This document shows positions 1,844 through 12,677 of a DNA stretch of 64,000 nt, piece by piece (position 1 is the first letter of the stretch; the number at the start of each line of letters is the position of its first letter). The stretch is from Armatimonadota bacterium (GTDB taxonomy: Bacteria > Armatimonadota > UBA5829 > DSUL01), in assembly GCA_025998755.1 (NCBI GenBank), contig AP024674.1, positions 2,744,162 through 2,808,161 of the forward strand. Direction: 5' to 3'. The position numbers and the translations under genes were made by a program. A model generated the notes under the pieces. It searched no databases. It was not told the DNA's origin and saw only the letters and a list, made by a program, of their open reading frames with translations.

Positions 1844-1873
1844 ATTATAGACATCCGCCCGCGGGGCTGTCAA
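1844..1873 (-). promoter_or_regulatory. Sigma70-type promoter of gltA
   Basis: On the minus strand TTGACA (1868-1873) and TATAAT (1844-1849) are separated by 18 nt. Both hexamers match consensus exactly, which is striking in DNA this GC-rich. The only gene downstream is gltA. Confidence 0.8.
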
Positions 1874-3706: not shown

Positions 3707-3794
3707 CCCTCCGACGCAGGCGGACGAGTGGAAGCCATCCCGTTGATAACTGGCCTCCACACGCGCGGCTTGCGCCGCGGTAATCTACCATCGT
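3707..3794. repeat. 88-bp direct repeat, copy 2
   Basis: Same 88-bp unit as 1977-2064, differing at two positions: A to G in the loop of the first hairpin, and G to A just after its second arm. Copies start and end abruptly, with unrelated flanks. The spacing of 1,642 bp between copies holds exactly the PEP-CTERM/lipoprotein operon with its leader and terminator. Confidence 0.85.
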
Positions 3795-6051: not shown

Positions 6052-6597
6052 TCAGCTGGCGTCCCGGCCGCCCCACCCGTGAGTGTGCGGCAGATAGTCG
6101 CGCCACGCCTGATTGCGCTTGCCGTCCATATACTTGGTCAGGCTGACGAAAGGCACCCACCGCGGCCGCCGCGGAGGCCGCGCCAGGTGGAAGCCCACTT
6201 CGGCAAGCGTCTTGTCCCCTTTCTTGCCATTGCAGCGCTTGCAGCAGCAGACCAGGTTCTCCCACTCGGTCCGGCCGCCCAGGCGGCGGGGAATCACATG
6301 GTCCACGGTGAGGTCCTGCGCGGTCTGTCCGCAGTACTGGCAGGTGTAGTTGTCGCGCGCAAAGATGGACCGGCGCGAGAGCCGCAGGCGCGGCATCGGC
6401 CGTTTGACGTGATACTTCAGGCGGACGACCGAAGGGCTGACAATTGCCTCCCGCGTGGTGTGCAGCGTGACGGAGTCTGTGTGCAGCACGTCCACCTTCC
6501 CCAGGCAGATCAGCCCGATCGCCCGCCGGATGTTGCAGATATTGATCGGTTCGTAGTCGCTGTTCAGGACCAGCACGTCCTGGTTCAAAGGGTCCAT
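6052..6597 (-). CDS. HNH endonuclease
   Basis: A 181-aa protein of the stand-alone HNH family common in bacterial chromosomes. An N-terminal half (VLVLNSDYEPINICNIRRAI) precedes the HNH core. The core has CQYCG and CCKRCNGKKG zinc-binding pairs, the catalytic DHVIPRRLGG and an Asn in WENLV, so ligands and the general-base His are present. I use the ATG at 6597, preceded closely by AGGAAAG, because the longer frame would begin inside a strong terminator. The gene follows a structured, terminated RNA (6649-6879), so its expression may depend on read-through. Function is unknown; restriction, repair and homing are all possible. Confidence 0.85.
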   Translation of the reverse strand: MDPLNQDVLVLNSDYEPINICNIRRAIGLICLGKVDVLHTDSVTLHTTREAIVSPSVVRLKYHVKRPMPRLRLSRRSIFARDNYTCQYCGQTAQDLTVDHVIPRRLGGRTEWENLVCCCKRCNGKKGDKTLAEVGFHLARPPRRPRWVPFVSLTKYMDGKRNQAWRDYLPHTHGWGGRDAS

Positions 6598-6648: not shown

Positions 6649-6690
6649 AAAAAGTCCGCCCCACACTGCTTGTTCAGTATGGGGCGGACT
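6649..6690 (-). terminator. Strong rho-independent terminator before the HNH gene
   Basis: On the minus strand an 11-bp stem AGTCCGCCCCA/TGGGGCGGACT, extended inward by ACTG/CAGT, is followed by TTTTT. It stands 52 nt upstream of the HNH start codon, at the end of the structured RNA. Confidence 0.85.
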
Positions 6691-6879
6691 GGAAAACGCT
6701 CACGCACGGCAACGGATGTGTCCGGACCGGGAATGCCGGAACACGAACTCATCGGTGCGACGGTAAAATCCCGCCGCTACCCCGCAACCAGAATGGGAAC
6801 GTCTGGGGAACACTCTGCCCTCTACGATTCCGGCCCGAAAGCCATCCATTGCCGCCTTCCGCACAAACGGAAGGATGCT
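6649..6879 (-). ncRNA. Structured RNA or leader of unknown class upstream of the HNH gene
   Basis: A predicted transcript of about 230 nt starts just after a consensus promoter and ends at a strong terminator. Visible helices: H1 CGGAAGG/CCTTCCG (6855-6874); P1, 11 bp with one G-U, joining 6843-6853 with 6708-6718; P2, 7 bp, joining 6828-6834 with 6735-6741; P3 CCAGA/TCTGG (6788-6806); P4, 7 bp with one G-U (6757-6777). P1 encloses P2, and P2 encloses P3 and P4. This multi-branched fold plus terminator is the architecture of a riboswitch or a stand-alone small RNA. It does not match cobalamin, TPP, SAM, FMN, c-di-GMP or 6S signatures that I know. Confidence 0.55.
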
Positions 6880-6885
6880 AACTGC

Positions 6886-6915
6886 ATTATAGGAAACACC
6901 AACCGCCCGTGTCAA
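6886..6915 (-). promoter_or_regulatory. Sigma70-type promoter of the structured RNA
   Basis: Minus-strand TTGACA (6910-6915) and TATAAT (6886-6891) separated by 18 nt, both exact consensus. The transcript would start near 6879. Confidence 0.8.
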
Positions 6916-12198: not shown

Positions 12199-12215
12199 GG
12201 GGAGGAATCCGGAAT

Positions 12216-12289
12216 CGGGGTGTGGCGCAGTTTGGCAGCGCGTCCGCTTTGGGAGCGGAAGGTCGCCGGTTCAAATCCGGCCACCCCGA
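12216..12289 (+). tRNA. tRNA-Pro (UGG)
   Basis: A 74-nt cloverleaf with acceptor CGGGGTG/CACCCCG, D arm GGCGCAG...GCAGCGC, anticodon TGG in the loop TTTGGGA, T arm GCCGGTTCAAATCCGGC and discriminator A. The 3' CCA is not encoded. Confidence 0.95.
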
Positions 12290-12315
12290 TATCTCAGAAG
12301 GCCGTACAGCAAAAA

Positions 12316-12388
12316 AGCGGGCGACCGGGCTCGAACCGGCGACATCCAGCTTGGAAGGCTAGCGCTCTACCAACTGAGCTACGCCCGC
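12316..12388 (-). tRNA. tRNA-Gly (UCC)
   Basis: A 73-nt cloverleaf on the minus strand with acceptor GCGGGCG/CGCCCGC, D loop GCTCAGTTGGTAGAGC, anticodon TCC in the loop CTTCCAA and T arm CCGGTTCGAGCCCGG. CCA is not encoded. A TATAAT at 12399-12404 on the same strand is a plausible -10. Confidence 0.95.
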
Positions 12389-12452
12389 TTGCATGGGGAT
12401 TATACCATTGAGAGGCGCGCATTGCACGCCTCGGCGAAACGAGTTTCTTCGC

Positions 12453-12525
12453 GCCCCCGTAGCTCAGGGGATAGAGCAACTGCCTTCTAAGCAGTGGGCC
12501 ACAGGTTCGAATCCTGTCGGGGGCG
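12453..12525 (+). tRNA. tRNA-Arg (UCU)
   Basis: A 73-nt cloverleaf with acceptor GCCCCCG/CGGGGGC, D arm GCTCAGGGGATAGAGC, anticodon TCT in the loop CTTCTAA, T arm ACAGGTTCGAATCCTGT and discriminator G. CCA is not encoded. It reads AGA and AGG codons. Confidence 0.95.
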
Positions 12526-12677
12526 CATTTGCCCCGGAAGTTCGATGATGCCGGTAGCCGGGCGCTTCCTGGAAAACTAAACCGGAGAGCACCCTGGGCG
12601 GAAGGCAGGCGAGCCACACCCGATGAATCCGGCCCGGATCTCCGGCAAGTGTTCCCGACGCCCCTGAAAGTCCATCC

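Follow-up and report, generated by a model that had tools for sequence, protein, structure and literature searches.

A probable ribosome-controlled transcription attenuator ahead of a core HNH nuclease gene in Armatimonadota

Analysis of a 64,000-nucleotide stretch of Armatimonadota DNA (hereafter the window) indicates that the HNH endonuclease gene encoded on its minus strand is probably preceded by a ribosome-controlled transcription attenuator, the arrangement of which suggests that the nuclease is produced only if a ribosome translating the leader inactivates a terminator. The interval ahead of the gene, described in an original prediction as a structured RNA of unknown class, is mostly a short leader mRNA: that prediction overlooked a 49-codon open reading frame (ORF; 6849-6700) inside the supposed RNA, the start codon of which lies within the proposed closing helix. 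The regulatory link with a stand-alone HNH nuclease put forward at the same time gained support, and on a far wider scale than was proposed, the part that failed being the identification of the regulatory element as a structured RNA.

The gene concerned (6052-6597, minus strand, with its ATG at 6597) specifies a protein of 181 residues (P0001 minus its first K) which matched the Pfam HNH_5 endonuclease family (PF14279) at 63.1 bits against a gathering cut-off of 27.5. Protein searches located it in 33 of 41 genomes, and it was present in 254 of 291 members of a wider phylum sample and, among near-complete genomes, in 182 of 194; it is a core, near-universal gene of Armatimonadota. Twelve aligned HNH proteins were 54-77% identical to that of the window, and when eight of the genomes without HNH at an E value of 1e-20 were searched again by profile, three gave weak partial matches. 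Assignment to an IscB/omega RNA system was rejected, P0001 reaching 60 of the 175 bits required, with the match confined to the HNH part, as was a PtuB-like defence role, for which the HNH-domain scores were partial. Term searches of the literature found no study of this HNH_5 nuclease.

Read along the minus strand, the locus presents in succession a promoter, ~230 nt able to fold, a terminator and the HNH gene. The promoter (6886-6915, minus strand) is of the sigma-70 type, with TTGACA at 6915-6910, an 18-nt spacer and TATAAT at 6891-6886, and as originally predicted it matches the consensus at 12/12 positions; it was the sole promoter-like site found in 3 kb. The exact TTGACA-18-TATAAT pattern occurs at 13 sites in the 3.29-Mb genome, as against none for a reversed control pattern, and some of the other sites precede tRNA genes. 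The second such promoter in the window (1844-1873, minus strand) is followed after ~240 nt by an ORF of 418 codons, citrate-synthase-like as judged by reading the sequence alone.

The intrinsic terminator (6653-6690, minus strand) consists of a 16-bp stem followed by TTTTTC, and the stem begins 9 nt past the leader stop codon. The strong terminator that had been predicted was confirmed, and its spacing from the HNH start was corrected from 52 nt to 55 nt, as measured from the stem. Provided that this 55-nt gap holds no other promoter, the HNH gene would here be reached only through the terminator. The computed fold also displays a 5' hairpin (6855-6874, minus strand) carrying a GGAAGG stretch, a possible ribosome binding site for the leader ORF.

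The leader ORF itself (6700-6849, minus strand) comprises 49 codons plus TGA and encodes MDGFRAGIVEGRVFPRRSHSGCGVAAGFYRRTDEFVFRHSRSGHIRCRA, with homologous leader ORFs in two family relatives. Both peptide and nucleotide alignments delimited a conserved C-terminal part (6703-6762, minus strand), its 20 residues, RRTDEFVFRHSRSGHIRCRA, being the last of the leader and aligning in frame with RALEEFVFRHSTSGQMFLRA of the family relative G002. Smith-Waterman comparison of the window peptide with those of the two relatives gave scores of 58 and 39 (shuffle p ~0.0005 and 0.0015), as against 17 and 19 when the other two window frames were compared with the first relative (G002).

Evidence for coding was also obtained from pairwise pN/pS ratios calculated in frames 0, 1 and 2. 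The values were 0.41, 0.76 and 2.17 for a motif block of the window's class (8 of 10 loci, L008 and L009 having been left out because the anchor failed); 0.26, 2.20 and 1.04 for 14 Fimbriimonadales loci, the leaders of which contained 0, 18 and 11 stops in the respective frames over 27 compared codons; and 0.64, 1.18 and 1.27, with 0, 17 and 3 stops, for 21 loci with a PPxWxDTIIR-like motif, from which motif matches scoring below 5/8 were left out. Over whole ORFs the ratio ranged by group from 0.37 to 0.73, the window family, which is near saturation, giving a pN/pS of 0.72 and a dN/dS of 0.38. These alignments indicate that it is the encoded peptide that is under selection, and in the ORF frame only; the leader ORFs appear to evolve as protein-coding sequence, and it is from this coding selection that their translation is read. 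In L028 and L153 the leader ATG is situated ~10 nt past the -10 box, and leaderless-mRNA translation may therefore occur.

Between clades, similarity of the leader peptides was mostly not significant (shuffle p mostly 0.3-0.8), and a single homologous peptide family is accordingly not claimed. Histidine accounted for 6.9% of the last 30 leader residues at 17 window-class loci and for 12.8% at 25 others (42 of 43 leaders being grouped for this count), compared with 3.6% in HNH, an enrichment near the leader end that makes His codons one candidate signal among several.

Thirty loci were read for their layout, and the series of promoter, short ORF, GC-rich terminator and HNH gene was present in nearly all window-class loci and in the greater part of the other classes, with a consensus promoter matching at 11-12/12 positions in 23 of the 30; L030 had none of the promoter, ORF and terminator layout. 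A terminator of dG <= -12 no more than 140 nt ahead of the gene was called at 107 of 137 distinct, deduplicated HNH loci and before 50 of 267 control ORFs drawn from the same loci, and its combination with a promoter of at least 10/12 located 50-350 nt upstream at 76 of the 137 and 3 of the 267 respectively, counts that are non-independent for related loci, that under-represent distant families because the sample comes from best matches, and that are set against mechanically called ORFs, 150 codons or longer, some of which may be spurious. As judged from these sequences, the promoter-leader-terminator layout before HNH is kept phylum-wide in Armatimonadota. Six homologues from a plasmid collection, all from other phyla and among the 20 listed of 40 matches, had no promoter-like match above 9/12 and included one with a strong terminator near HNH, a sample too small for absence of the layout to be deduced.

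The distance from terminator to HNH had a median of 50 nt over 114 loci and a minimum of 13, the calling being wrong for L016 and L024. Such a short gap leaves little room for a separate promoter at many loci, and it is from the gap that we infer none to be present between terminator and HNH; with the terminator at this median distance, HNH would mostly be reached by read-through.

The position of the leader stop codon relative to the terminator was equally distinctive. In a set of 42 leaders picked by eye, 40 of them with a usable called terminator (L016, the terminator of which is visible by eye, and L148 were left out), the stop codon lay at a median of -2 nt from the stem base, with 16 of the 40 at exactly -2, 20 at -3 to 0, and 35 within -12 to +15. 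Ordinary ORFs (708, again mechanical ones that may include spurious members) yielded 94 terminators, for which the corresponding median was 18.5 nt and none of which lay at -3 to 0. The stop-codon position fits disruption of the terminator by a ribosome, an occlusion likely to be weaker in the window than in its relatives since the window's own stop codon is at +9 nt. Other leaders are arranged differently: in Fimbriimonadia the ORF extends through the terminator to near or on the HNH start, and at all 14 Fimbriimonadales loci it ends at +2 to +16 of the aligned HNH start (a terminator being called in 12 of the 14). The ORF likewise runs past the terminator at most of the 21 PPxW loci, and at L020 and L022, members of the window's class, it passes through the terminator to end near or on the HNH start.

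Conceivably the product of the ORF is itself a functional small protein, such as an HNH partner or inhibitor, made at a high level, with the terminator merely holding HNH low by comparison. Selection on the peptide and the strong promoter are in keeping with such a role, as is the result of a search of 41 genomes with a leader profile, strong matches to which lay solely beside HNH, in 11 genomes that were all sources of the profile; no second leader copies were seen in the 41 genomes by this means, although the profile also failed to recover the window's own divergent leader. For the 49-residue window peptide, no convincing further copy turned up in the same genome (best other E 0.04), and a DNA-level search for the element in the 41 genomes returned itself as the sole match. 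Nevertheless, the conserved stretches of the leader peptides are short, their N-terminal parts and lengths vary, and the peptides differ between clades while HNH stays 54-77% identical; five of them searched against Pfam and NCBIfam gave no match at E <= 1. The stop codon is moreover joined to the terminator stem with a spacing not found among ordinary genes, and passage of the ORF through the terminator in other clades is a feature that a plain gene-plus-terminator arrangement does not need. Taken with these points, a small-protein function is considered unlikely.

Much less probable again is the structured non-coding RNA, a new riboswitch or sRNA, that was originally envisaged. The helices on which it was founded (6708-6853, minus strand) are complementary as claimed: the closing helix (6853-6843/6718-6708; 11 bp with one G-U), which brings the leader start codon into pairing with the 3' end of the ORF, and the inner helix (6834-6828/6741-6735) are both present in the minimum-free-energy fold, and a discrete promoter and terminator would suit such an RNA. 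The whole transcript including the terminator folded with a z of -6.4 (0 of 200 shuffles as stable), and the leader without it with a z of -2.9, so the fold is a stable one, but much of the excess stability of the transcript is that of the terminator. When the leader was compared with permutations of its own synonymous codons, its fold energy was unremarkable (z = -0.77), 69 of 300 permutations reaching an energy as low or lower; the stability of the leader is explained by its codons.

Nor did the named helices show the expected covariation. In a three-sequence family alignment of low power, composed of the window and two family relatives, 61.1% of cells were paired as against a shuffle mean of 57.0, with 92 of 500 shuffles as high, and closing and inner helices were broken in both relatives; slid versions of the helices scored lower, as expected because the helices were taken from one of the aligned sequences. 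This low-power test gave no support for a conserved RNA fold. The accompanying statement that the element matches no common riboswitch class is in line with an Rfam search of the element, which yielded weak, chance-level listings with none at threshold, and with a search of the relatives' leaders, which yielded no match. The 6S RNA that had been named as an alternative is also discounted, since its covariance model gave no match at the element; the genome's only 6S match (C1:1183859-1184055; 53.4 bits, cut-off 46.4) lies outside the window. A riboswitch or small-RNA architecture is thus left with no Rfam match and with helices that are not kept in the two relatives, and the corresponding leaders are under frame-specific purifying selection; what is conserved instead is a coding leader ORF and a terminator. 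Averaged over 75 loci, the leaders showed slightly more structure than shuffled sequences (mean z -1.09), and an RNA-level role may therefore exist. Least credible of all is a type III toxin-antitoxin-like unit of antitoxin RNA, leaky terminator and nuclease toxin. Its parts do follow the type III order of promoter, short RNA, terminator and nuclease gene, the RNA of type III systems bearing tandem antitoxin repeats before the terminator; HNH, however, belongs to the core gene set (182 of the 194 genomes that are near-complete), and the supposed RNA is under coding selection.

The ribosome-controlled attenuator is therefore the reading developed here. Promoter, coding leader ORF and terminator, with their order, close spacing and retention throughout the phylum, are features read from the sequences themselves; on this basis, the strong promoter would give rise to a short transcript that carries the leader ORF and as a rule stops at the intrinsic terminator, so that little HNH would be made by default. 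In most classes a ribosome translating the last leader codons or occupying the stop codon, and in Fimbriimonadia and some others a ribosome passing through the terminator sequence, would leave the hairpin unable to form, whereupon RNA polymerase would read through and HNH would be transcribed. Ribosome occlusion would accordingly be the switch, and read-through the sole route to HNH. The conserved clade-specific peptide motif is the probable site of a signal-dependent slowing or arrest of the ribosome, a scheme that leaves the direction of control, on or off, free.

Within the family to which the window belongs, no conserved antiterminator was found (duplex z +0.8, +1.1 and +2.0), and the phylum-wide signal was weak, the mean z being -0.38 for 75 loci. 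At L087 and 13 related Fimbriimonadales loci, examined from ~-185 to the HNH start, the leader peptide THGLNGFDCERWSTGSWFGTRGRYRCR is very conserved, and in leaders of this type a GGCUCC codon segment is able to pair with GGAGCC of the terminator 5' arm; this segment is plausibly the clearest antiterminator candidate, in one Fimbriimonadales clade.

Control of this general kind is already known. In the tna operon of Escherichia coli, a ribosome held at the stop codon of the TnaC leader prevents downstream termination, much as is proposed for the HNH leaders, although the tna system is Rho-dependent and tryptophan-sensing whereas the terminator at the HNH loci is intrinsic. Another precedent is the pil1/pil3 pilus attenuator of Streptococcus gallolyticus (PMC3894217), in which promoter, leader ORF, intrinsic terminator and structural gene follow in the same order as at the HNH locus and the same stop-codon and terminator logic applies: for pil1, the operon is on when the stop codon is placed inside the hairpin, near it or past it, as the ribosome can then block the terminator. 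It differs in that the pil1/pil3 stop position flips by slippage of GCAGA repeats (PMC3894217), that of the HNH leaders being fixed and conserved, and in its target, pili rather than an HNH nuclease, with different peptides. The bmrB leader of bmrCD in Bacillus subtilis (PMC4191407) is subject to ribosome-mediated attenuation with an intrinsic terminator within the leader coding region, and in having the terminator inside the leader ORF it resembles the Fimbriimonadia form; it is antibiotic-responsive and drives an ABC transporter (PMC4191407), and the likeness is one of arrangement. Together with the short gap between terminator and HNH and the stop-codon geometry, these precedents make a ribosome-controlled attenuator the most likely explanation.

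What is new is the leader peptides, and what is unexpected is the HNH nuclease as target: in a little-studied phylum, a nuclease that nearly every member carries seems to have its expression coupled to translation through a leader peptide and terminator retained across the classes. More tentatively, the peptides may constitute phylum-wide, arrest-type leaders, unrelated to known ones, that tie expression of a core chromosomal nuclease to the state of the ribosome. Were that so, disturbed translation, whether caused by phage, by antibiotics or by scarcity of charged tRNAs such as that for His, would switch a DNA-cutting enzyme on or off. The apparent coupling points to a physiological role for the HNH_5 nuclease and supplies new candidate arrest peptides. 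A literature search of titles and abstract beginnings, with subscription papers and preprints mostly outside its scope, returned nothing on an HNH leader or on attenuation in Armatimonadota.

Several minor features of the window were also recorded. On the plus strand at 6759-6786, opposite the leader ORF, there is a cobalamin-riboswitch-core-like stretch, GGUAAAAUCC...CCCCGCA, which is probably a coincidence; as a candidate riboswitch it was rejected at 7.8 bits against a threshold of 31.5, with no convincing plus-strand gene behind it. An 88-nt direct repeat (1977-2064 and 3707-3794), with copies 98% identical and 1730 nt apart, is possibly a dispersed genome repeat. A tRNA cluster at 12215-12526 comprises Pro, Gly and Arg genes, the Gly gene being on the opposite strand.
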